Below, one piece after another: positions 1 through 31,468 of a stretch of 64,000 nucleotides of DNA. The stretch is from the NCBI RefSeq assembly GCF_031081985.1, contig NZ_JARWSK010000006.1, positions 186,001 to 250,000 of the forward strand, given 5' to 3'. The translations under genes and the position numbers were made by a program. The notes beneath the pieces were generated by a model. The model did no database searches and was not told the origin of the DNA. It was given only the letters and a program-made list of their open reading frames with translations. This DNA is from Komagataeibacter xylinus. GTDB lineage: Bacteria; Pseudomonadota; Alphaproteobacteria; Acetobacterales; Acetobacteraceae. Each line of letters starts with the position of its first letter. The first letter of the stretch is position 1.

Positions 1-1383
1 ATGGAGCAGGGCGTCCCAGTCATCGGGGCTGGTGGACGGGTCGGCTGGCATCTTGAAATGGTCGATGACCCAGCTTTCACCGCCGACGCCCCAGCCGCGC
101 ACGAAGCCCTCGAAATGGCGGGCCTGTATGTCGACCGCTGCGGTCATGAAGCGGACACCCGAGGGAACGGTGCCCATGGTCAGGGTCGCTTCCGCGCGGT
201 CAGCGATGACAGTGGCGTCGATACTGCCGACCGCCTTGGGTGGCTCGAAGGGCAGGCCCCAGCGTTTGACTGTCACGTCCTTGAGTTTCTGGACGGCTTC
301 TTCCTCGCCATTCTCGACTGCCCGGCGCGCCTTCTCCATTTCATAGGCGAGGGAGCCGATGCCGCCGATCACGAAGGGAGACATGGCGCCGGTGATCCAG
401 AACCCCGCGATCTCCTTGGCGACCAGTTCTCCGGTTATGTCACCATCTTCGCTGATGGTCTGACCCATGCCGACCCAGACGCCATCACGGTTCATGGCGC
501 GCCGCCATTTGTCCTCGATCAGGGTGCCGCAGCAGGGGCAGACAAGCCGTGCGGTTTCCTTGATCTCATCAAGCGGGGCATCTGCTGGCCAGTCCAGCGT
601 CATGACACGCTGGCCCATCGGGTTGGGCGAGGAATAGGCGTTACAGTTCGGGCAGGGCCAGTACCAGATGTGCCGGTCACTGTCCCGATAGAGGGACATG
701 ACCCCGTTCGTCCATTTATCCGGACTGGCGCCAGCTGCCATGTCTGGATGGCTTTCGGCCAGCACCATGGATTCATACATGAATGACTGCCGACGATAGC
801 TGGCCAGTTCATATGTATTGCCGCCGCAGGCATCCAGTTCGGTAATGATGACGCGTGGTGCGGATTTCTGGATAAGATTATTGTAACTGGCCGCCAGAAA
901 CTGCACCCACATGCCGGTGAATTTCTTGAAGTGCATGGAGTTGTCGCGTGGCAACTTCCCCTGCTTGTCTTTCAGACGCTTGTGGCTGTCGATCAGCGGA
1001 TTGATTTCTGCCTTTACATATTCCTCAATCATCGCATCGGTTGCGCTGTAGACCAGCATATCCGCCGGGTCTGCATCGATGGACTGGCACATCCAGTTCT
1101 GGCCGATTGCGGTCTTGCCGCTTCGTGCCGGGCCGACAACGGCGGTGGTCAGATGATTACGGCTGCTGAGCGCCCGCATTGGCCCGACCAGATAAGGAGC
1201 CTCATCATGGTTCCATCGCCCGACGTAACCGCCGCCACGATTATCCAGGTAGCGGTGAAGTGCGGCATAATCGGCAACATCTATCTGCTCTGGCGGCAGG
1301 AAAGCCTTGATGGCATTCGAGATGACCGCGCGCGGATCAGCAAACCTCACCTTAGACAAGGGCGTCGGGCTGGAGACCGTCAT
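1..1383 (-). CDS. Phage terminase large subunit, GpA-like (3' end cut by window edge)
   Basis: This is the ATPase/nuclease motor that packages phage DNA. It reads leftward and runs off the left edge, so only about the first 461 codons are present. I translated it from the complementary strand. It opens with an ADPRAVISNAIKAFLPP stretch typical of GpA-type terminases. A Walker A-like VVGPARSGKT follows near residue 90, and a Cys pair (CPNC) and a CPCC pair lie near residues 230-280. The chosen ATG at 1383 overlaps the small-subunit gene by about 30 bases. A GTG at 1350, one base after that gene's stop, is the main alternative. Head and portal genes would be expected to the left of the window. 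The family call is by motif and context; the nuclease domain is only partly visible. Confidence 0.85.
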   Translation of the reverse strand, partial: MTVSSPTPLSKVRFADPRAVISNAIKAFLPPEQIDVADYAALHRYLDNRGGGYVGRWNHDEAPYLVGPMRALSSRNHLTTAVVGPARSGKTAIGQNWMCQSIDADPADMLVYSATDAMIEEYVKAEINPLIDSHKRLKDKQGKLPRDNSMHFKKFTGMWVQFLAASYNNLIQKSAPRVIITELDACGGNTYELASYRRQSFMYESMVLAESHPDMAAGASPDKWTNGVMSLYRDSDRHIWYWPCPNCNAYSSPNPMGQRVMTLDWPADAPLDEIKETARLVCPCCGTLIEDKWRRAMNRDGVWVGMGQTISEDGDITGELVAKEIAGFWITGAMSPFVIGGIGSLAYEMEKARRAVENGEEEAVQKLKDVTVKRWGLPFEPPKAVGSIDATVIADRAEATLTMGTVPSGVRFMTAAVDIQARHFEGFVRGWGVGGESWVIDHFKMPADPSTSPDDWDALLH

Positions 1384-1996
1384 CTTCCGTCTCACCTATC
1401 TTCATGTCATCCAGCACCTTCTGGACAGCTGTGCGCTGCATGTCCGCCAGCTTGCTCTCAGCCTGCCGGATCATGACATCCGGCCATGACTGCTCGCGGC
1501 CCAGCTGGCGGATGAATACATTGATGTCCCGACCGAGGCGCCCGAATACAGACGTGAACAGGTCCTGCACTTCCTCGGCATTGACCAGCTTTCCAGCGCG
1601 CTCGGCCTGTTTCATCTGCAGGTCCTGCAGGCGCGCCAGGTCAAGCTGTTCCTTGATGGGGATGCGCGGGCCTGATGGCTGCGCGACAGGTTCAGGCCAT
1701 AACGTGAGCTGGAGCTTCATCAGCTCCGCGTCCCGATCTGCCTCTTTGGCGGCTTCTTCTTCCCGCCGGGCCGTGAGGAAGGCCAGAACCTCATCAAGAT
1801 GAAAGGTCCAGCTCACGCCGTTGCGGCCGCGCTCGACCACGGGAAATTCTGGCCAGCGATCTAGCCAGCTGGTCAGGGTCGGCAGCGATATCCGCAGCCG
1901 GTTGGCCAGTTCGCGTTTGTTGACGGTCGGACGAATGGCGGTGGCCTGACCATCCTGCGCTGCCTCATTGTCTGACAACAACACCAATGGAAACAC
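1352..1996 (-). CDS. Phage terminase small subunit, Nu1-like
   Basis: This is a DNA-recognition subunit of the packaging enzyme. The N-terminal part has a Nu1-type winged HTH: TVNKRELANRL, then SLPTLTSWLDRWPEFPVVERG. A charged helical C-terminal half follows (LARLQDLQMKQAERAGKLV), as in lambda Nu1-like proteins. The open frame extends upstream to 2248, but that extension is low-complexity Pro/Arg/His and unlike a phage protein. I therefore place the start at a GTG at 1996, four bases after AAAGG; another GTG lies at 1984. The 3' end overlaps the large-subunit gene. The pairing with a GpA-type large subunit directly downstream supports the call. Start uncertain by tens of codons. Confidence 0.75.
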   Translation of the reverse strand: MFPLVLLSDNEAAQDGQATAIRPTVNKRELANRLRISLPTLTSWLDRWPEFPVVERGRNGVSWTFHLDEVLAFLTARREEEAAKEADRDAELMKLQLTLWPEPVAQPSGPRIPIKEQLDLARLQDLQMKQAERAGKLVNAEEVQDLFTSVFGRLGRDINVFIRQLGREQSWPDVMIRQAESKLADMQRTAVQKVLDDMKIGETEDDGLQPDALV

Positions 1997-2237
1997 CAAG
2001 CCTTTGTAAAATTTATGAAAGTCAGAGACCTGACAGGGTGCGAACAGCTCGTGGCGCCTGACCCTCCCAGGAGGGACCCACAGGATTTCCCACCATGGCG
2101 GGGGAGGGGAGGAAGGTCTGGCATCGGCGTCAGATCGGGTTACATGACCGCCTCCATCACCATCCTCGCACACGCTATCCCGCAACGAAAAACGGCGTGA
2201 ACCCCGAAGGATGCACGCCGCCTCAACATAACAACCG

Positions 2238-2720
2238 CTATGCGGCAAAATGGGGAATTTGGGAAGTGAAAAATGCAGGCTGTGCGATTTTTCTGGCGAT
2301 GTCCGCTACGGCCAGCTGGTGCCATGACTTGGCCGTGTGATGGTCAATGTGCAGATGATTGGCGATCTTCCGCCATGTCCAGCGGTATCGATGCGAGATC
2401 GGATGCACGACCAGGCGCAGGCAGACCACCTTGCGCCAGTTCAGCCGGTCATCGCCGATCAGGCCGATCCATGACAGGGCTTCATCCATGCGCGTGATCG
2501 CGGCCGAGCCGGGGCGGGGTGGTCGCATGTCCTCGGCCGGGCAGGCGTTGATCCAGTCGAGGTCGGCATCCTCCAGCATCTCGGGCCATGCTACGCGCAC
2601 GCCGCCGGGTTTCAGGCCATGCGCGGGGAGTGCCGCCAGCGTGCATCCGGCCTCAAACAGCCGCTGGCCAACCACATCGGCCACGGCCAGACCCTCGGGG
2701 ATGGTGAGGGAAGGCCTCAT
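2238..2720 (-). CDS. DUF6362-like phage protein with HTH-like C-terminus
   Basis: A 160-residue protein whose central TRMDEALSWIGLIGDD and later WTWRKIANHLHIDHHTAKSWHQLAVADIA resemble DUF6362 proteins. Those are small phage and mobile-element proteins with a C-terminal helix-turn-helix-like segment. The start codon overlaps the stop of the upstream replication gene (ATGA at 2717-2720), so translation is probably coupled. It sits between the replication genes and the terminase genes, where a late-gene regulator or packaging accessory would be plausible, but no function is established. The roughly 240 bases between its end and the terminase small subunit contain no convincing gene. The family assignment is from recalled consensus, not from a search. 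Confidence 0.65.
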   Translation of the reverse strand: MRPSLTIPEGLAVADVVGQRLFEAGCTLAALPAHGLKPGGVRVAWPEMLEDADLDWINACPAEDMRPPRPGSAAITRMDEALSWIGLIGDDRLNWRKVVCLRLVVHPISHRYRWTWRKIANHLHIDHHTAKSWHQLAVADIARKIAQPAFFTSQIPHFAA

Positions 2721-3658
2721 GCCGCTGCCCGCGCACTGGCAATGAAGTCCTCGCGGCGCGGCTGGGGCGCGTCGCTGCCATTGGCTGCAGCCAGCACCCA
2801 CTGGCGGTGTGCTTCCACGTAGGCTGCTTCCGCCGCGAACTCAGCTTCCGTGGTGCAGACCAAGGCAGGGATGTCGCGGGTCTTGATCGCCTGCTCGATG
2901 GCAGCGTTGAAGTAGCCCATGTGTTTGATCGCGAGGCCTTTCTGGCGCTGGCGGTCGGTCACCTTGGCCACCACGTCCATCACCAGCCGCTCAGTCTCGG
3001 CAGCGTTCAGCCCCTCGGCCAGCGCATCGGCCACCCACTGGCGCACCTGCCCCCAGTTGCCGCGATCACGCGCCGGATCGAAACCGGCTGCCTCCCATGC
3101 CTTGCGCCCCAAAACCCTGAACACCGCATCAACGTCCTGTGCCGCAGGCTTAGCTTTAAGATTATTACTAACCTCTAAGCTAAGCTTAGGATCGTGGGTT
3201 TCGCGTTGGGTTTCGGTGGCCATGTCTTTTCCTCCTGCAATGCCCATGATGGCGGTGCGCTGGCGCGGATCGTGCTGCGGTTTCGGGTTGGCTTTCGTTG
3301 GCGGCCGTCCGCCCTTTTTCCCATTCTCACGCGCCGCCAGCGCCTTGCGTGATGGCATGAGCGCGCCGGGCAGCCCGATGGTGCCGCTGGCGGCATCGTG
3401 GGTTACCAGCTGGGTTTCGGCGTAGGTTTCCAGATGGGTTACCAGTTGGGTTACATCCATGCGCAACCCGACCTCGGCAATCTCGGCCAGCGTGGGCGCG
3501 CCGCCCTTGCCGGGCACCAGCACGCCGTCGGTGCCGTATTCGATGATGTAGGAGATGAGCTGCACCCATATCCCGATGGCGGCATGGCCCAGCGCGCGCA
3601 GGCGGATGTTGTGCGTCGCCATCTGGAGCATTTTCTGTTCGGTTGTCACGCGGGCCAT
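2717..3658 (-). CDS. Putative phage replication initiator (winged-helix N-terminus, origin repeats inside the gene)
   Basis: A 313-residue protein. The N-terminal ~90 residues (HNIRLRALGHAAIGIWVQLI, then PTLAEIAEVGL) look like the replisome-organizer winged helix found in phage initiators. A basic linker with GKKGGRPPTK lies around residues 110-125. A low-complexity stretch follows, then a helical C-terminal domain (residues ~170-290). The gene directly follows a second winged-helix-like gene and a DnaB helicase gene, which supports a role in loading helicase at the phage origin. Its own DNA carries 12-bp tandem repeats and an AT-rich stretch (see the origin entry), the lambda O arrangement. 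The function is inference; the repeats are directly visible. One base separates its ATG from the stop of the upstream gene. Confidence 0.7.
   Translation of the reverse strand: MARVTTEQKMLQMATHNIRLRALGHAAIGIWVQLISYIIEYGTDGVLVPGKGGAPTLAEIAEVGLRMDVTQLVTHLETYAETQLVTHDAASGTIGLPGALMPSRKALAARENGKKGGRPPTKANPKPQHDPRQRTAIMGIAGGKDMATETQRETHDPKLSLEVSNNLKAKPAAQDVDAVFRVLGRKAWEAAGFDPARDRGNWGQVRQWVADALAEGLNAAETERLVMDVVAKVTDRQRQKGLAIKHMGYFNAAIEQAIKTRDIPALVCTTEAEFAAEAAYVEAHRQWVLAAANGSDAPQPRREDFIASARAAA
3149..3458. other. Candidate phage replication origin inside the initiator gene
   Basis: The segment combines three 12-bp-phased repeat groups with an AT-rich stretch in otherwise GC-rich DNA. The AT-rich stretch is 3150-3187, about 70% A+T, with CTAAGCTAAGCTTAG-type short palindromes. 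The repeat pairs are GGGTTTCG at 3196 and 3208, and a weaker CGGTTTCG/GGCTTTCG pair at 3278 and 3290. The main array of five units is at 3399-3458. In phage lambda the origin lies inside gene O, as iterons bound by O next to an AT-rich unwinding region. The layout here is the same, with AT-rich DNA beside the distal repeat pair. Function is inferred from this layout and from the neighbouring dnaB. Confidence 0.5.
3399..3458 (+). repeat. Five tandem 12-bp iteron-like repeats
   Basis: On the + strand the cores GGGTT, GGGTT, AGGTT, GGGTT and GGGTT begin at 3400, 3412, 3424, 3436 and 3448, exactly 12 bases apart. The full units are TGGGTTACCAGC, TGGGTTTCGGCG, TAGGTTTCCAGA, TGGGTTACCAGT and TGGGTTACATCC. 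Because 12 bases equal four codons, the encoded protein shows a four-residue repeat (TQLV-THLE-TYAE-TQLV-TH). The same 12-base spacing recurs at 3196/3208 and 3278/3290. Confidence 0.85.
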
Positions 3659-3659
3659 G

Positions 3660-3944
3660 TCAGTAAGCTTTCAGGCGGTAGCCATTCCGGAAGGGCTCCA
3701 GAATGTCGAGCTGCACCAGCTGCTCGATTGCGGTGCCGACTTCGGCGGCATCAGCCGCCACAAGCCGGGTGAACTGTTCTTTGTCGGGTGCCGTGCGCAC
3801 GGGCGCGCGCAGTTCCGGCATGAGATCGGCCGCGTCGGTCAGCTCCAGCCACATGGCGCGGGCCGAGAGGCCAAGCAGCCGCCAGCGGCGGTCTGTCATC
3901 AGAACGCGGGCATGTTTTCCGGGGCGTTGACGCGGCGATTTCAT
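3660..3944 (-). CDS. Small winged-helix-like phage replication protein
   Basis: A 94-residue protein with RRWRLLGLSARAMWLELTDAADL followed by AADAAEVGTAIEQLVQLDILEP. That is the helix pattern of replisome-organizer-type winged helices and resembles the first 90 residues of the larger initiator directly downstream. It begins ten bases after the small membrane-protein gene, with AAAGGA provided by the end of that gene. It ends one base before the initiator ATG. It is likely a duplicated DNA-binding module or an accessory replication factor. I do not recognise a named family. Confidence 0.6.
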   Translation of the reverse strand: MKSPRQRPGKHARVLMTDRRWRLLGLSARAMWLELTDAADLMPELRAPVRTAPDKEQFTRLVAADAAEVGTAIEQLVQLDILEPFRNGYRLKAY

Positions 3945-3951
3945 TGCAAGG

Positions 3952-4140
3952 TCATCCTTTCCATCGGCCCCATTGGACGAGGACTGACAGCAGCCCGTAT
4001 CCCCATAGGAAACCGAACATCATCATGAGCGCGGCAGGCCTTCTGCCCGTCACCTCACATCCGGCAAGACCGCAGACCGTGCCCAGCAGGGCGGCGCGGC
4101 CGCAGTCGGCAATCGATGCCAGTACGCGATACCGCATCAT
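3952..4140 (-). CDS. Small hydrophobic phage protein
   Basis: A 62-residue protein with two hydrophobic stretches: around residues 17-30 (AALLGTVCGLAGC) and 37-56 (AALMMMFGFLWGYGLLSVLV). It could be an inner-membrane protein. Its ATG shares one base with the stop of dnaB (TGATG at 4138-4142), and its own end supplies the ribosome-binding site of the next gene. No family recognised. The tight packing in the replication operon is the main evidence that it is real. Confidence 0.5.
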   Translation of the reverse strand: MMRYRVLASIADCGRAALLGTVCGLAGCEVTGRRPAALMMMFGFLWGYGLLSVLVQWGRWKG

Positions 4141-5672
4141 CAGAACTCCGGCGCCGTAATGGTCCAGGCCGGACCGTTTTCACTCTCATCCACATCGCGG
4201 AACCATGTGGTCTCATCCTGGAACTGGAGTGCGCAGCCGCCGGTGGCGCCATGCCGGTTCTTGGCAATGAACACGCTGGCCTTGCCCCTGCTGTCGCGCG
4301 TGCGCTGGATCAGGCTGGCGCAGCGGGCGCTGTAGGCCTCATCCGTCTCGCGGTCATTGCGTGGGATGTTGCCGTCGCCCAACTGCTTGTTCAGGTAATA
4401 ATGGTCGCGGTGCAGGAACAGAACGGTGGCCGCATCCTGCTCCAGCGAGCCACTGTCGCGCAGGTCGGTCAGTTCCGGCCGCTTGTCCTCGCGCTTGGCG
4501 CTCTCGCGTGAGAGCTGCGCCAGGGCGAGCACCGGGATCTCCAGCTCACCGGCAAGGTTTTTCAGGTCCTTGCTGATTTCCGTCATCTTGTGCGTGAGGT
4601 TGAACGAGCGTGAATCGGTCGAGGCACTAAGCAGCCCGACATAATCAACCACGATCAGGTTCAGCCCCTGTTTCGAGCGCTTCATGGCGCGGGCCTGCGT
4701 GCGCAGCTCCGCCACCGTGATGCCCGAGCGGTGATCGATGCGCAGCGGCAGGCTGGCGGCAGCGTGCTCGCCTTCCTCCAGCTCGCGCCACTGGTAGTCG
4801 GCCAGCGGCTCGCGCTGCGTGGTGTCGGCATGGGGCGGAATGTCGTACCGCCGGCCGGTAAAGACCGACAGTGTGGAAAGACCGGCCCATGCGGCACCGG
4901 CACGCGCGCCCAGCTGGGCCGCGCGCATCTCGCCCGACCAGAACAGCACCGAATTGCCCGCCGCTGCCGAACGCACGGCAATGCCGAGCCCCAGCGCCGT
5001 CTTGCCCATGGCAGGCCGCGCGCCAAGCAGCGTCAGGTCACCGGCATGCAGGCCACCGGTCATGCGGTCGAGCGCCTTGTAACCCCACGTAATGCCCGCA
5101 AGCCCATCACCACGCTCGGCCGCAGCGCGCGCGTTGAGGATGGCCTGGCCAATGGCATCGCCAATCTGCACCGTGGGCTGGATCTCCACGCTGCCGGACG
5201 CGATGCGGGTGATGCGACTTTCCAGCATCTCCATCAGGGCGCTGTCGGGCCGGTCGCCGGGCATGCAGCACAGGTCAGCCGTCTCGGCACATACATCAAA
5301 CAGGTTGCGCCGGAACCACGCGCTGCGGATGGCGTGGGCATAATCGGCGGCGTTGGTAATGCCCACCATGCTGCCCAGCAGCGTGGCGAACACCTTGGCC
5401 GCTGTCATGTCGATGGGCAGCAGCGGGTCATTTTCAAACCGGGGGCGCAGCGTAATCGGATCGGCCACGTTGCCCGCCCAGATCAGCGTGCGCATGGCCG
5501 CAAAGATCGCGCCATGCAGCGGCACATAGAAATGCTCGGGCTGGAGGATTTCCTCCACGCGCCCGAACGCCTTGTTATTGGTCAGGATCGCGCCCAGCAG
5601 CGCCTGCTCGGCAGGGACATTGGTGGGGCGCTCGCGCATGGCGGAGCCAAACAGGGGAGCAGGGCCGTTCAT
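4140..5672 (-). CDS. dnaB: Replicative DNA helicase, phage DnaB type
   Basis: A 510-residue hexameric 5'-3' helicase. The N-terminal domain (about 1-125) contains PAEQALLGAIL near the start, typical of DnaB. The RecA-like C-terminal domain carries Walker A GARPAMGKT (217-225), Walker B LIVVDYVGLL, and the motif run QLSRESAKRE ... LTDLRDSGSLEQDA, the classic H3/H4 region of DnaB. The last ~90 residues are longer and more divergent than in host DnaB. The gene lies in the prophage replication operon, with an ATGA overlap to the upstream HTH gene and an overlap with the downstream small membrane protein. It probably works with the adjacent winged-helix proteins at the origin candidate at 3.15-3.46 kb. 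Confidence 0.93.
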   Translation of the reverse strand: MNGPAPLFGSAMRERPTNVPAEQALLGAILTNNKAFGRVEEILQPEHFYVPLHGAIFAAMRTLIWAGNVADPITLRPRFENDPLLPIDMTAAKVFATLLGSMVGITNAADYAHAIRSAWFRRNLFDVCAETADLCCMPGDRPDSALMEMLESRITRIASGSVEIQPTVQIGDAIGQAILNARAAAERGDGLAGITWGYKALDRMTGGLHAGDLTLLGARPAMGKTALGLGIAVRSAAAGNSVLFWSGEMRAAQLGARAGAAWAGLSTLSVFTGRRYDIPPHADTTQREPLADYQWRELEEGEHAAASLPLRIDHRSGITVAELRTQARAMKRSKQGLNLIVVDYVGLLSASTDSRSFNLTHKMTEISKDLKNLAGELEIPVLALAQLSRESAKREDKRPELTDLRDSGSLEQDAATVLFLHRDHYYLNKQLGDGNIPRNDRETDEAYSARCASLIQRTRDSRGKASVFIAKNRHGATGGCALQFQDETTWFRDVDESENGPAWTITAPEF

Positions 5673-5914
5673 GGCTGCTCATCCGTCCGGGCAGGAACAG
5701 GGTCGATTGGCTGGTACATGGTGACCGTGACCGGGCGAAAGCCCAGTGCCAATGGCACCGACTTTCCCAGCCCCTTGTGTCCATTCACCGCATTGGCCAG
5801 CGTATGCATGTTCAGGCCGGTTCTGGTGGCCAGTTTCTGCACGCCACCTGCCTCGCGCACCCGCGTGTTCAGCACGGTGTACATCTCGGTCGCCGTCAGC
5901 ATGGGGCCGCTCAT
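5669..5914 (-). CDS. Small HTH DNA-binding phage protein
   Basis: An 81-residue protein with a helix-turn-helix-like core: VREAGGVQKLATRTGLNMHTLANAVNG. A short C-terminal tail ends RPVTVTMYQPIDPVPART. The pattern fits a Cro/YdaS-like DNA-binding protein of the replication operon. The gene overlaps dnaB (ATGA at 5669-5672) and is itself overlapped by the upstream gene (ATGA at 5911-5914), so the three are probably co-translated. The exact role is unknown. Confidence 0.6.
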   Translation of the reverse strand: MSGPMLTATEMYTVLNTRVREAGGVQKLATRTGLNMHTLANAVNGHKGLGKSVPLALGFRPVTVTMYQPIDPVPARTDEQP

Positions 5915-6156
5915 GACGAACGCCTCCCGCTACGGAAAGAATACGTCACGCGCGCCCGGCCCAGATAGGTGCGGCCAGAGGACGTGATGGACACACTGAC
6001 CTGATTGCTCACCCCCAGCACCTGCATGCGCGAGCGCACAGCGCGGGCCGAGACGCCCATCTTTCGCGCCATGGTGGAAACCGAAACACCCATGCCCGCC
6101 ATCTGGCGCAGCATGGGGTCGAGCCTTTCCCAGTCAATCGATATGGCTGGCATCAT
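5911..6156 (-). CDS. Small HTH phage regulator
   Basis: An 81-residue protein beginning MMPAISIDWERLDPML. It carries an HTH of the sigma-region-4/GcrA-like kind: MAGMGVSVSTMARKMGVSARAVRSRMQVLGV. The open frame extends upstream to 6315, but the ATG at 6156 is preceded by a strong AGGAGAAG and the extension has no family-like features. The last codons overlap the next gene by four bases. It may regulate the replication operon or be a DNA-binding structural accessory; function unknown. Confidence 0.6.
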   Translation of the reverse strand: MMPAISIDWERLDPMLRQMAGMGVSVSTMARKMGVSARAVRSRMQVLGVSNQVSVSITSSGRTYLGRARVTYSFRSGRRSS

Positions 6157-6199
6157 CTTCTCCTGGCACAGGCCGGGCGCAGGCAGCGCCCCCGGCCCA

Positions 6200-6433
6200 T
6201 CAGTGAAACAGGTTCCGGCGCAGCCGAATCTTGAGGCGCGCAATGCGCTCAAGCCGTTCGGTCCTGCGCTCGAGAATGGCGGACTCCCGCAGTGCCCAGG
6301 CATCGAGCGTGCCAACGAGCAGGCGGAAAAACTTCAACACGATCCACGCGCGCCCCCGGCGCATGACCAGCACCAGGCACACGGGCACGCCAAAAACCGA
6401 CGCGCTGATCCAGATGTAAAAGGTGTGCGTCAC
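6200..6433 (-). CDS. Small membrane protein of the prophage
   Basis: A 77-residue protein with one N-terminal membrane segment (FYIWISASVFGVPVCLVLVM, about residues 5-24) and a strongly basic C-terminal half (RRTERLERIARLKIRLRRNLFH). Its topology would be N-out/C-in with a cytoplasmic basic tail. The start overlaps the stop of the upstream gene (ATGA at 6430-6433). No recognised family. A short GC hairpin (GGGCGC/GCGCCC at 6175-6191) lies just after its end, before the next gene. Confidence 0.45.
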   Translation of the reverse strand: MTHTFYIWISASVFGVPVCLVLVMRRGRAWIVLKFFRLLVGTLDAWALRESAILERRTERLERIARLKIRLRRNLFH

Positions 6434-7014
6434 AGCAGGTCCCGCAGTGCGGCCTGCCGCTGCCGGATGTTTTCAAGCCGCTGGCGGATCAGGGCATCCT
6501 CATGCCGCAGGCGGCTTTCTTCCTGCGCCAGGCGGGCTGCGCCCAGCGCGCGCACGGCCTGCCATTCGGCCAAGGTGACGGCACGCACCTCATGGTGCCA
6601 GCACGCGCGCACGCGGCGCACGGTAAAGCCGAGCGCACGCGCCACCTCGGCAAAGGCGCCAGCCAGCCCGAGCCGGTCGCGGCGCGCGCTGACCTCGGCA
6701 CTGACAAGGTTCTGGAACTCATCGCGCAGCGCATCGGCGCACATCTTAGATCTGGCCTCCCGATCCGGACTGGATGCACCCGCGCGCGCGGGTGAAATGG
6801 GCAAAACGTCCGAGCGCTCGGACAAATCGGCCAAAATACCCGCGCGCTCGGACAAAAACGGCAAAATACCCGACACCTCGGACGCCCTCCCTGACATCTT
6901 GATGGATGTCAGAGGGGCGTTTCCCTCGGGTAACGAGCAAGGCAGGGAAGGGCAGGCCGCCAGCGCGCTGGACACGCATGGAAAGCTGGCGGCCTGCCCA
7001 CCCTGAATGGACAT
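6430..7014 (-). CDS. Phage protein with N-terminal ten-residue repeats and helical C-terminus
   Basis: A protein of up to 194 residues. Residues ~44-75 form about three copies of a ten-residue repeat (SEVSGILPFL, SERAGILADL, SERSDVLPIS), encoded by a 30-bp DNA repeat. The C-terminal ~90 residues are Arg/Glu/Gln rich and probably helical, with a possible HTH (GAFAEVARALGFTVRRVRACW). Whether translation starts at 7014 or at an internal ATG (6897) is open, since neither has a clear ribosome-binding site. No family recognised. It is the first gene after the zinc-ribbon regulator, and its end overlaps the next gene by four bases. Confidence 0.45.
   Translation of the reverse strand: MSIQGGQAASFPCVSSALAACPSLPCSLPEGNAPLTSIKMSGRASEVSGILPFLSERAGILADLSERSDVLPISPARAGASSPDREARSKMCADALRDEFQNLVSAEVSARRDRLGLAGAFAEVARALGFTVRRVRACWHHEVRAVTLAEWQAVRALGAARLAQEESRLRHEDALIRQRLENIRQRQAALRDLL
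6781..6890 (+). repeat. 30-bp tandem repeat with 16-bp palindrome
   Basis: Units start at 6781, 6811, 6841 and (partial) 6871, each keeping a (G)CTCGGACAAA...GGCAAAATACC-like pattern; the first unit is the most diverged. The first junction creates the perfect palindrome GTCCGAGCGCTCGGAC at 6808-6823. The repeats lie in the coding sequence of the 6430-7014 gene and encode ten-residue protein repeats, so they could be a protein feature, a DNA-binding array, or both. Confidence 0.75.
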
Positions 7015-11563: not shown

Positions 11564-12021
11564 TGGAAGCCCGCCAGCTCGATCTTGTTGACTACATTGC
11601 AGGCATCTCCGCGCCGCCCGCAGCGGCACCGCAGGAAAACCCGCTGGACCTGCTGCCGCGCCGCGCCAAGGCATGGGAGCGCATGGTCGCCCACGTTCCT
11701 GCCGAGGATGTCCGCATCAGTATCTCCACGACCTGGACCCGGGTTGTGATGGAGCAGCTGCGCGAGGACGGGCGCGGTGACTTGCTGTTCGCCACCGGCA
11801 AAATCAGATCCGACGACGTGCCACCCGACCTCATCTGGCCCGAGCCCTGCCGCCTCATCCTGATGACAGCCGCCAGCGCGGCCCGCATTCACGAACGCTG
11901 GTGCCTGGAGGAAGCCCCCGGCACCGGCCTCAGCAACACCTTCCGCTTTGCCCAGCAGCAGTATGCCGATCGCAAGGCCGTATCTCGGCAATTGAGCGCG
12001 CTGGTCGAGGAGAAATCATGA
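11563..12021 (+). CDS. Hypothetical prophage protein upstream of the methyltransferase
   Basis: A 152-residue protein (MEARQLDLVDYIAG at the start; LPRRAKAWERMVAHVPAEDV in the middle). The residues around IWPEPCRLILMTAASAARIHERW look helical. The ATG at 11563 was chosen over the upstream open frame because it abuts the previous gene and has GGAGG about ten bases before it. It overlaps the methyltransferase ATG by four bases. No recognised domain; early-operon accessory of unknown role. Confidence 0.5.
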   Translation: MEARQLDLVDYIAGISAPPAAAPQENPLDLLPRRAKAWERMVAHVPAEDVRISISTTWTRVVMEQLREDGRGDLLFATGKIRSDDVPPDLIWPEPCRLILMTAASAARIHERWCLEEAPGTGLSNTFRFAQQQYADRKAVSRQLSALVEEKS

Positions 12022-13475
12022 TCTTTGCAGCCACACTTTGCAGCGGTATAGGCGCGCCTGAAATGGCGATGCCCGGCTGGTGCTGGCGTTACTGCGCGGA
12101 GATCGAGCCGTTTCCCTTGCGTATGCTTGCCCGCAGGTTTCCGGCCTCGATCAATTTGGGCGATCTGCTGACAGAAGATTTCAGTGCCAGGGCATGCGCT
12201 CTTGGCCCCATTGATGTGTTGGTGGCTGGAACGCCCTGTCAGGATTTCAGCGTGGCCGGTCGCCGCACAGGGCTGGAGGGTGCGCGGGGCAATCTGACCT
12301 TGCGCGCGATCCAGATATACGAGGAGCATTGCGATGCAGCTCGATCTGCTGGACGCGGCGAACCGCTCTACGTCTGGGAGAACGTCCCAGGCATCCTATC
12401 CGATAAAACCAACGCCTTCGGGTGTCTCCTCGGCGCGCTTGCAGGCTGCGAGACCGCCCTCGTTCCGCCAGCAAGACAGCGCTGGACCCGGGCGGGTTTG
12501 GTTGCTGGACCCCGCCGAGCCATCGCATGGCGTGTCCTTGACGCTCAATATTTCGGCTTGGCCCAACGACGCGAGCGTGTGTTCGTTGTGGCAGGTGCTC
12601 TCGACGGACCCGATCCCGCCACAATACTTTTTGAGCCCGAAAGCGTGCCGGGGAATCCTGCGCCGCGCCGCTGCGAGGGGGAAAACATTGCCCCGACCAT
12701 TGCTCGCGGCTCTCCGGGCGGTTGCGTCTACGGCTTAGATGCTGACACCGTAGAGAGTCTGCAGGCGGAAATCGCTCCATGCCTGCAAGGGCAGCCGAAC
12801 CGCTCTTACCGGGCCGATACGGAGATGTTTATCCCGCTTGCGTATGGAGGGAATAACTGCTCCGGGCCATTGGATGTCGCTCCCGCCCTGAATGCCCATG
12901 GCGGTCCTGTGGGCCGTCTCGATTTCGAAAGCGAGGCATTCATTTGCGCGACATTGGATGCCTCTTATGGTCGCCTGCAGGGTTGCGCTGGTCAGGATGC
13001 CAGCCATGGGCATTCGCATCTGGTCCCGATGGCATTTGATTGCACCGCATCGGGCCAGAATGGCTTCGGCGTAGGCGAAATTGCCAGCACCATGCGCTCG
13101 ATGGGACGCGTTGGCAGCAATTCCAGCGGCGGTGGGCACCTGGCCGTCATGGCTCCCGTTTCCGTTGCCCCGCACGGCCGGGATGGCGGTAATCAGATCG
13201 AAATGGGAGATGACGTTGCGCACGCGCTGAGCGCCAGTCAGGGCGGATCGGACAAGCCCCATCTCCTGACCAGCGCCGTCCGCCGTCTGATGCCGATCGA
13301 GTGCGAGCGCCTGCAGGGCTTTCCTGACCATCACACAGACGTCCCGAACGGTAACCGGCCGGCAGCAGATGGCCCCCGATACAAGGCGCTGGGCAATTCC
13401 ATGCCCGTGCCTGTGCTGCGCTGGCTGCTGCGTCGGGTTGAAGAAGAAATTATAGCAAGAAAGGAAACGGCATGA
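12018..13475 (+). CDS. DNA (cytosine-5) methyltransferase, phage-encoded
   Basis: A 485-residue C5 methyltransferase that would methylate cytosine in a specific DNA site. The N-terminal SAM motif I is FAATLCSGIGAPEMA. The catalytic loop is GTPCQDFSVAG (Cys near residue 77), followed by the ENV motif (VWENVPG). Motif VIII is AQRRERVF. The last motifs are RRLMPIECERLQGFPD and YKALGNSMPVPVL. Between motifs VIII and IX lies a long ~200-residue variable region carrying the target-recognition domain. The ATG overlaps the preceding stop (ATGA); the longer open frame upstream is not needed. No restriction nuclease gene accompanies it, so it is probably an orphan protecting phage DNA or regulating genes. 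Confidence 0.9.
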   Translation: MIFAATLCSGIGAPEMAMPGWCWRYCAEIEPFPLRMLARRFPASINLGDLLTEDFSARACALGPIDVLVAGTPCQDFSVAGRRTGLEGARGNLTLRAIQIYEEHCDAARSAGRGEPLYVWENVPGILSDKTNAFGCLLGALAGCETALVPPARQRWTRAGLVAGPRRAIAWRVLDAQYFGLAQRRERVFVVAGALDGPDPATILFEPESVPGNPAPRRCEGENIAPTIARGSPGGCVYGLDADTVESLQAEIAPCLQGQPNRSYRADTEMFIPLAYGGNNCSGPLDVAPALNAHGGPVGRLDFESEAFICATLDASYGRLQGCAGQDASHGHSHLVPMAFDCTASGQNGFGVGEIASTMRSMGRVGSNSSGGGHLAVMAPVSVAPHGRDGGNQIEMGDDVAHALSASQGGSDKPHLLTSAVRRLMPIECERLQGFPDHHTDVPNGNRPAADGPRYKALGNSMPVPVLRWLLRRVEEEIIARKETA

Positions 13476-15139: not shown

Positions 15140-15240
15140 ATCCTAACGCAAATGGTAGCGGTGGACGGATTTGAACCGCCGACCAAGGGATTATGATTCC
15201 CCTGCTCTACCGCTGAGCTACACCGCCATCGCGTTAGGAT
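15140..15240. other. Presumed attachment site region with inverted repeat flanking the tRNA
   Basis: The int gene abuts the 3' end of tRNA-Met, so the phage-host junction is expected within the tRNA 3' half (about 15153-15195). The other copy lies outside the window, so the core cannot be defined. The tRNA is also bracketed by a perfect 10-bp inverted repeat, ATCCTAACGC (15140-15149) and GCGTTAGGAT (15231-15240), each three bases from the tRNA ends. Their pairing would extend the acceptor stem in the precursor. Confidence 0.5.
15153..15227 (-). tRNA. tRNA-Met (CAT), elongator type
   Basis: The minus-strand sequence folds as a standard cloverleaf. The acceptor is GGCGGTG/CACCGCT, the D arm GCTC...GAGC, and the anticodon stem GGGGA/TCCCT around the loop ATCATAA (anticodon CAT). 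The T arm is GGCGG TTCAAAT CCGTC. The 3' CCA is encoded. The G1-U72 pair and lack of initiator features favour elongator Met; an Ile tRNA with lysidine-modified CAT cannot be fully excluded. It is the prophage integration target. Confidence 0.93.
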
Positions 15241-30169: not shown

Positions 30170-31468
30170 ATGACACCCAGCGCACGGCTTTCCGCCGCCA
30201 TTGACCTGCTTGCCGCAATGGAGGCTACGCCGCAGCGCCCTGCCGATGCGCTGGCCAATGCCTTCTTTCGGGAGCGGCGTTATATTGGCGGCGGCGACCG
30301 CCGGGCCATCTCGGCGCGCGTGTGGCGTGTGCTGCGGCACTGGCGCAGGCTGCACTGGTGGATTGAGCGCGTGGGGGGGAAGGTCACGCCCCGCACGCTG
30401 GTGCTGGCCATGATGGCGCTCGACCCGGAGGCGCGTGAAAACCCGCAACACCTCTTTACGGGCGAGCGGTACGCGCCGCTGGGGCTGATCGGCTCCGAGA
30501 GCAGCCTGTACGCCCGGCTTGAAGGGCAGGGGCTGCTGCACCCCGACATGCCGCCCGCCGTGCGGCTGGAAGTGCCGGACTGGCTGCTGCCCCGCCTTGA
30601 GCGTACTTTTGGGGACGGGCTGGAAGCCGAACTTGCCGCCATGGATGGCGAGGCGACGCTTGACCTGCGGGTGAACCTGCTCAAATCCGACCGCCCTACA
30701 GCACGGGCCGCCCTTGAGGGCGAAGGCATCCATGCGGTTGATACCACGCTCTCGCCATGGGGGCTGCGGGTTGCGGGCCGCCAGCCCATTACATCATGCG
30801 CCGCCTTTCGCAGCGGGCTGATCGAAATTCAGGATGAAGGCAGCCAGCTTGTGGTTGCCGCCGTGGGCGCGCGGCCGGGCATGCGCGTGCTCGATTACTG
30901 CGCGGGCGCTGCGGGCAAGACGCTGGGCATGGCCATGACCATGGAAAACCGGGGGCACATCGTGGCGTGCGATGTGTCCGAGCCACGGCTGGAAGGTGCG
31001 GTGCGCCGCCTGCGCCGCGCGGGCGTGCACAATGCCGAGCGACACCTGCTGGTGGCGGGCGACCGCTGGGCGCGCCGCCGCAGTGGCAGCTTTGACCGCG
31101 TGCTGGTCGATGCGCCCTGCACCGGCACCGGCACATGGCGGCGCAACCCCGATGCCCGCCTGCGCCTGCGCGAGCGCGATCTTGTGGAACTGACCGAAAA
31201 GCAGGCTGCCATCATGGACCGCGCCGCAGCCCTGGTGCGGCCGGGCGGGCGGATGGTCTATGCCACCTGCTCCGTGCTGCGCGAGGAAAATGGCGATCAG
31301 ATCGCAGCCTTTCTGGCCCGCAACCCGGCTTTCTCGCTGGTCGTGCCCGATGGCGCGGATGATGACCTGCCTGCGGGGCTGAGCACGGATGGGCAGGTCA
31401 GCCTGACGCCGCGCCAGCACCATACGGATGGCTTTTTCGCCGCCATCATGCAGCGTGACGCGGGCTGA
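30170..31468 (+). CDS. rRNA (cytosine-C5) methyltransferase, RsmB/NOL1-NOP2-Sun family
   Basis: A 432-residue methyltransferase. The N-terminal NusB-like helical part is FRERRYIGGGDRRAISARVWRVL. The SAM site is VLDYCAGAAGKTLGMAM. The two catalytic Cys motifs are VDAPCTGTGTWRRNPD and MVYATCSVLREENGDQ. The ortholog usually methylates C967 of 16S rRNA, but other Sun-family targets cannot be excluded. It lies after guaB, an order seen in other Acetobacteraceae by my recollection. Confidence 0.88.
   Translation: MTPSARLSAAIDLLAAMEATPQRPADALANAFFRERRYIGGGDRRAISARVWRVLRHWRRLHWWIERVGGKVTPRTLVLAMMALDPEARENPQHLFTGERYAPLGLIGSESSLYARLEGQGLLHPDMPPAVRLEVPDWLLPRLERTFGDGLEAELAAMDGEATLDLRVNLLKSDRPTARAALEGEGIHAVDTTLSPWGLRVAGRQPITSCAAFRSGLIEIQDEGSQLVVAAVGARPGMRVLDYCAGAAGKTLGMAMTMENRGHIVACDVSEPRLEGAVRRLRRAGVHNAERHLLVAGDRWARRRSGSFDRVLVDAPCTGTGTWRRNPDARLRLRERDLVELTEKQAAIMDRAAALVRPGGRMVYATCSVLREENGDQIAAFLARNPAFSLVVPDGADDDLPAGLSTDGQVSLTPRQHHTDGFFAAIMQRDAG

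Follow-up and report, generated by a model that had tools for sequence, protein, structure and literature searches.

A candidate phage replication origin within a predicted initiator gene of Komagataeibacter xylinus

Introduction

The layout in which a replication origin lies inside the gene of its own initiator is already known, as in the phages lambda, P22, L and SPP1. For the lambda origin, the accessible part of PMC5043065 describes iterons within gene O, in the form of 19-bp inverted repeats, with an AT-rich region beside them; calculated from the coordinates, the four annotated iterons correspond to codons 117-145 of O, and inspection of the lambda sequence by eye reveals an AT-rich stretch followed by an inverted repeat. 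The same calculation for P22 places the annotated origin within gene 18, at codons 118-166; the DnaB gene is the neighbor of gene 18. SPP1 carries oriL in gene 38, where, in the accessible text of PMC6316719, direct repeats and an AT-rich unwinding element lie within the initiator gene. The origins of PICIs are arranged differently: as far as the available portion of PMC6092414 describes them, two iteron sets flank an AT-rich region, in an origin located 3' to the initiator gene. Our comparison with known systems also draws on the accessible parts of PMC8022706 and PMC7466680.

Here we describe a locus in a stretch of 64,000 nucleotides of Komagataeibacter xylinus DNA (the window), which is very probably a phage, now prophage, replication origin situated within its own initiator gene. 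A preliminary description of the window had proposed such an intragenic origin, and the proposal is supported by what is purely comparative evidence: the codons of one array of repeats are nearly fixed among related genes, while the same residues have mixed codons elsewhere.

Results

The predicted initiator and its surroundings

The predicted replication initiator gene is an open frame on the minus strand at 2717..3658, encoding 313 aa. In the AlphaFold model of the protein (mean pLDDT 78.9, pTM 0.39), a winged helix (residues ~1-114), with helices at 25-41, 57-64 and 69-81 and strands at 86-88 and 93-95, is followed by a linker (residues ~115-172; pLDDT <50 at 133-168) and a helical C-terminal part (residues 173-313). 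The model thus fits an N-terminal DNA-binding domain with a flexible linker; by the usual winged-helix layout, we take helix 69-81 to be the recognition helix.

The window protein had no match in Pfam at E<=1, in NCBIfam at E<=0.01 or in PHROGs at E<=0.1 (phrog_16304 came at 0.21). Among 20 members of its family, two matched phrog_13246 (replisome organizer; best E 7.6e-9) and 11 the unnamed phrog_32575, and weak matches of single members were to initiation or O-like PHROGs, namely phrog_270 and three O-like ones (E 0.0024 to 0.034). A profile search of PDB sequences led to the DNA-binding parts of Crp/Fnr-type regulators, with a best E of only 0.0089. Foldseek with the initiator model found nothing in the PDB at E<=0.001 (best E 0.16), many of the sub-threshold matches being DNA-binding domains of transcription factors; against viral models it gave three matches at E<=0.001, all with TM-scores <0.3, one of which is named replication initiation and membrane attachment.

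Upstream of the initiator in the direction of transcription lie a 94-aa protein, a 62-aa frame and a phage DnaB-type replicative helicase (4140..5672, minus strand; Pfam DnaB_C E 2.4e-68, with a PHROGs match), so that a phage dnaB does lie near the open initiator frame. The 94-aa protein (3660..3944, minus strand), directly upstream of the initiator, is a stand-alone protein resembling the initiator winged helix (17.7 and 22.8 bits with the family profiles; BLASTP against the initiator E 0.29), and it might act at the iterons, either as a competitor or as a helper. Downstream of the initiator are a DUF6362 protein and terminase genes. Relatives of four neighbors were counted in the 33 non-redundant initiator loci that span at least 3000 bases: DnaB is represented in 28 of them, the DUF6362 protein in 14, the 94-aa protein in 13 and the small subunit of terminase in 10; because flanks are short, missing neighbors in these counts may be cut-offs. 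No loader was recognised among the six window proteins scanned against Pfam and PHROGs. Further on, a host-type gene for an rRNA methyltransferase (30170-31465) suggests a prophage in a chromosome. The window also has a tRNA-Met gene at 15153-15227 and a C5 cytosine methylase gene at 11901-13475.

Repeated units and an AT-rich stretch in the window gene

Two arrays of 12-bp units, both read on the minus strand, lie inside the initiator gene. Array 1 (3395..3454), which we list as an iteron array on the grounds of codon conservation and motif enrichment, has five units: GTAACCCAACTG at 3454-3443, GTAACCCATCTG at 3442-3431, GAAACCTACGCC at 3430-3419, GAAACCCAGCTG at 3418-3407 and GTAACCCACGAT at 3406-3395. 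The spacing between all five is exactly 12 bp, as the preliminary description had it. The array encodes residues 69-88, which comprise the predicted recognition helix (units 1-3 and the first codon of unit 4) and the first wing strand. Array 2 (3191..3214), in the linker coding region, consists of two units at 3214-3203 and 3202-3191 (GAAACCCAACGC, GAAACCCACGAT), again 12 bp apart, and thus confirms a further pair that had been placed at 3196/3208. A third pair, claimed near 3278/3290 (GAAAGC at 3296 and GAAACC at 3284 when read on the minus strand), was rejected, since it is not kept even in near relatives; in L036 and L033, for example, it is disrupted by a synonymous AAA-to-AAG change. Of the repeats and AT-rich stretch first reported, then, the five units, the pair of array 2 and the AT-rich stretch stand, and the third pair falls.

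The AT-rich stretch, reported as lying beside the distal pair, indeed adjoins array 2: positions 3149..3190 have 33% GC, a value as low as which is found in just 0.27% of 42-base stretches in window positions 1-7000. It contains an inverted repeat on the minus strand (3148..3185; 9-bp arms at 3185-3177 and 3156-3148, with a 20-base loop), a candidate unwinding element or hairpin. Array 2 and the AT-rich arms together encode linker residues 149-171. Folded as single-stranded DNA, the minus strand at 3195-3140 gives -9.2 kcal/mol (z -1.88), a value as good being reached by 12 of 200 shuffles; taken alone, the inverted repeat of the window gene has p 0.18 (0.22 in an earlier run).

In the window, TGGGTTWC occurs 7 times versus 1.94 expected, with 6 of the 7 occurrences inside the initiator gene; none of 100 shuffles reached a count of 7. 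The 12-bp periodicity of the window gene is what its peptide repeat predicts: over 39 ORFs including the initiator, and with a protein-preserving null, the lag-12 match of the gene is 31 versus 28.4 expected (p=0.14), so that the single gene by itself is no proof of a DNA-level signal, and we rejected this statistic as evidence. A 7-mer-pair statistic (z 6.0 and 5.6 in two runs) was likewise rejected because other window ORFs also score high; over the 39 ORFs its mean is 2.73 (sd 1.94), and 3 of the 38 others exceed the initiator. Between positions 2000 and 6000 there is no exact DnaA box and there are six one-mismatch sites, of which the one at 3315 falls between arrays 1 and 2. GC skew in 2-kb steps has no clear switch at the site. 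A DnaA-trio reading of TAG/TAA runs was also considered.

Relatives of the initiator

Of 397 genomes of the bacterial family, 33 had a match in a protein search; one of these is the window's own. Profile searches, whose counts include matches to one domain only, gave 14 of 385 genomes of the class and 121 of 395 genomes of the order. Viral contigs contributed 6 loci in one search and at least 23 in another, with one common to both, and named genomes at least 8 loci, from Komagataeibacter, Acetobacter, Asaia, Gluconobacter and Ameyamaea. Three family members had no match in 50,697 phage records, and the window protein had none in 72,556 plasmid records, sets from which records very near the window may be excluded. 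The window's own genome has, on contig C9, a second, distant relative of the N-terminal part of the initiator (L050).

From these loci we removed three short or doubtful matches (L027, L073, L074) and six with truncated, shifted or incomplete frames (L008, L012, L015, L057, L077, L083); keeping one gene per 80% identity cluster then left 40 representatives. Codons were compared in the 27 of the 40 with the peptide repeat. Motif enrichment was assessed in 31, after removal of the distant genes without units (L018, L037-L043, L050); the inverted-repeat test used 37 genes (the 31 minus L030, plus 7 from further loci), the test of the bases following GAAACC 36 of those 37 (without L116), and the listing of motif variants 32 (the 31 and L026). 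The borders of the zones within the gene are approximate, having been placed with the help of a GG motif located by pattern. In L015 and L083 the array is crossed by a frame that is shifted in comparison with related genes, and the DNA units are still recognisable.

Constraint on the DNA in related genes

In homologues at 40-50% protein identity, ACC is kept at 4-codon spacing, mostly after GAA. Counting as array Thr codons those with another Thr four codons away within codons 55-95, ACC is used in 84 of 89, versus 102 of 275 Thr codons elsewhere in the same 27 genes (linker excluded; Fisher p 1e-23); the remaining five are the four ACT codons of L019 and a single ACG in L037, a gene without units. 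Glu preceding an array Thr is encoded by GAA in 59 of 60 cases, versus 172 of 433 elsewhere in the same genes (p 1.5e-20). Pooled over all 40 representatives, the figures for elsewhere are 157/404 for ACC and 269/659 for GAA. As the codon rows are related sequences, these counts are not independent events. For array 1, related phages thus keep a DNA pattern where the protein would permit other codons. Homologues with an intact protein repeat and a scrambled DNA repeat, which would have counted against the preliminary description, were not seen for array 1; its third pair did not pass this comparison.

Across the 31 genes, GAAACC/GGTTTC occurs 97 times in zone 1, the zone of array 1, versus 22.3 expected (the highest of 500 synonymous shuffles gave 34), and 51 times in zone 2, that of the linker array, versus 17.6 expected (highest shuffle 29); the rest of the gene has 16 versus 13.3 expected (highest shuffle 24). 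The enrichment is therefore confined to zones 1 and 2, and it involves both strands and more than one frame: the motif is translated mostly as ET, but also as xKP in zone 2 and mostly as xVS on the other strand of zone 1. Neighboring pairs 12 bp apart in zone 1 number 27 on the gene's plus strand and 13 on the other, and spacing in zone 2 is mostly 9 to 16, i.e. not tied to codons. After GAAACC, the C and the A are retained in the other frames of zone 2, each in 73% of 15 cases, and less well on the opposite strand of zone 1, in 18% and 51% of 43; outside the zones the values are 31% and 36% of 19. Both orientations of the motif are present in zone 1 of 16 of the 31 genes, frequently with GGTTTCC units preceding GGAAACC units; the array of the window gene runs in one direction only. 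The exact motif is absent from zone 1 in 3 of the 31 (L011, L021, L030) and from zone 2 in 5 (L010, L019, L021, L064, L079). Judged from these comparisons, in which the signal goes beyond chance, the repeated units inside the predicted initiator gene are under constraint at the DNA level.

A linker inverted repeat, behind array 2, also recurs in relatives with changed sequence. It goes beyond synonymous shuffles (p<0.05) in 15 of the 37 non-redundant genes, versus none of the 37 in an equal C-terminal zone; 16 of 37 reach this level in the N-terminal zone, largely because units face each other there. In an earlier run with 40 genes, the combined p was 1.4e-7. The arms vary by clade (GCTTAGCTT/AAGCTAAGC, ACTTACTTACTT/AAGTAAGTAAGT, TATCTTATCTAATC/GATCAGATAAGATA, CTCGCGCGCGGTACTA/TAGTAGCGCGCGCGAG); among the 15 significant repeats, those of L021 and L029 are built from the units themselves, and the arms are wholly or partly GC-rich in L072, L016, L020 and L115.

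Variants of the motif

In L019 (72% GC), zone 1 contains five copies of GAAACT and a single GAAACC, and zone 2 three copies of GAAACT and no GAAACC; all four array Thr codons of this gene are ACT, whereas the three counted elsewhere are ACG/ACC. In L021 and L026, which are mutually close, both zones are without GAAACC; GAAAGC is present in one copy in zone 1 and in three copies in zone 2. The latter case is weak, because there is only a single exact unit in zone 1 and eight more of the 32 genes likewise have GAAAGC in zone 2. Taken together, the two cases are suggestive of a motif that changes jointly in both zones. Relatives of L021 and L019 were sought in viral contigs, and none were found.

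Other repeats are seen in more distant or longer relatives. L135, L142, L050 and L018 have GGGGTTAACC-type palindromes in the linker region, in addition to AGAAGC runs in L135, L142 and L018; it looks as if other intragenic origins with different iterons exist. L123, L126, L138 and L030 are longer (365-392 aa as extracted) with a different N-terminus, and have AAACCCA units on both strands of the linker region. L129 (402 aa) has many GATACCCA and GTATCCCA units in its linker region, apparently another change of iteron.

Discussion

We propose that the initiator would bind GGAAACC(C/G)A-type units of both arrays via its N-terminal winged helix. By analogy with lambda, the two units beside the AT-rich inverted repeat, aided by the distal five-unit array, would strain and melt the AT-rich element; the melted strand may form a hairpin, and the C-terminal part of the initiator would recruit the phage DnaB encoded nearby.

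Could the units simply be a repeat in the protein, T-x-x-x-T along the recognition helix, written in preferred codons and without a function of the DNA? The 12-bp match of the window gene stays within the level of synonymous shuffles, as this explanation would have it. We nonetheless consider it very unlikely, since codon choice in the array hardly varies, unlike that for the same amino acids elsewhere in these genes, and since the motif is found in other frames and on the other strand as well; L019, moreover, uses ACT in the four array Thr codons only, and has GAAACT in zone 2 too. A regulatory role is somewhat easier to imagine, with the units serving as an operator for the initiator or for the small winged-helix protein in the absence of any origin: initiators often regulate themselves, and a protein resembling the initiator winged helix is encoded just upstream. 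This we still regard as improbable, because the units lie ~200 to 470 bases into the initiator frame, an AT-rich inverted repeat comes after them, and dnaB is close.

That the segment is bound by a host protein or used for packaging (pac) might be thought of because terminase genes are close. The units are, however, in the initiator gene and not in the gene for the terminase small subunit, and the motif is altered in both zones of L019, a gene from the same bacterial family, as would suit a reader encoded by the phage; there is hardly any chance, in our judgment, that this explanation is correct. An origin of phage replication is thus the reading we favor for the units and the AT-rich element.

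A more far-reaching possibility, which we put forward tentatively and which may well prove wrong, is that the origin encodes its own reader. The DNA of array 1 would then be both the codons of the recognition helix and the site that this helix is predicted to bind; the linker array would follow its changes, and the hairpin arms would change but stay complementary. The result would be a self-contained, specificity-switching module, spread through phages of acetic acid bacteria and their relatives. If this is true, a change of iteron can alter the helix, and a change of the helix can alter the iteron.

The locus adds an initiator family for which neither Pfam nor NCBIfam has a named model, together with a candidate origin, in prophages of vinegar and cellulose producers. 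The overlap between binding site and recognition-helix codons makes it a natural system for studying joint change of initiator and site, and it is a possible source of replication modules for laboratory plasmids. In a literature search that covered mainly freely accessible papers, no title dealt with such a phage origin in acetic acid bacteria.

Compared with known systems, the locus resembles lambda in that iterons lie near the middle of the initiator gene (here array 2 and the AT element, at codons 149-171), that an AT-rich element adjoins them, and that there is an inverted repeat at the AT-rich stretch in both. It differs in having direct units spaced at 12 bp, as opposed to the 19-bp inverted repeats described in the accessible part of the lambda source, in encoding a phage DnaB, and in having a second, larger array in the codons of the DNA-binding domain; the lambda and P22 annotations show no feature where array 1 lies here. 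Lambda O and P22 gp18 gave negative bit scores with two profiles of the family (A1, A3), i.e. we found no sequence relation. The term "lambda-type", used in the preliminary description, is thus apt for the layout and not for the ancestry of the protein.

With P22 (gene 18/gene 12) and phage L (gene 18), the locus shares intragenic repeats in the initiator and a phage DnaB gene close by; the comparison with phage L is one of layout. The annotated origin of P22, like array 2 and the AT element here, is near the middle of its gene. In P22 the repeat is different and dnaB lies downstream, whereas here it lies upstream. SPP1, compared by description only, is alike in its direct repeats and AT-rich element inside the initiator gene and differs in its separate loader and helicase, as far as the available text on it goes. 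With PICI origins, again within what the accessible part of their description covers, the locus shares two iteron sets and an AT-rich region; an assignment to the PICI type was rejected, since both arrays here are on one side of the AT-rich element, which they do not flank, and are intragenic. While the intragenic layout is thus familiar, what is new here is the initiator family without a named model, the short 12-bp units, the extra array in the codons of the recognition helix, and an inverted repeat that recurs with changed sequence.
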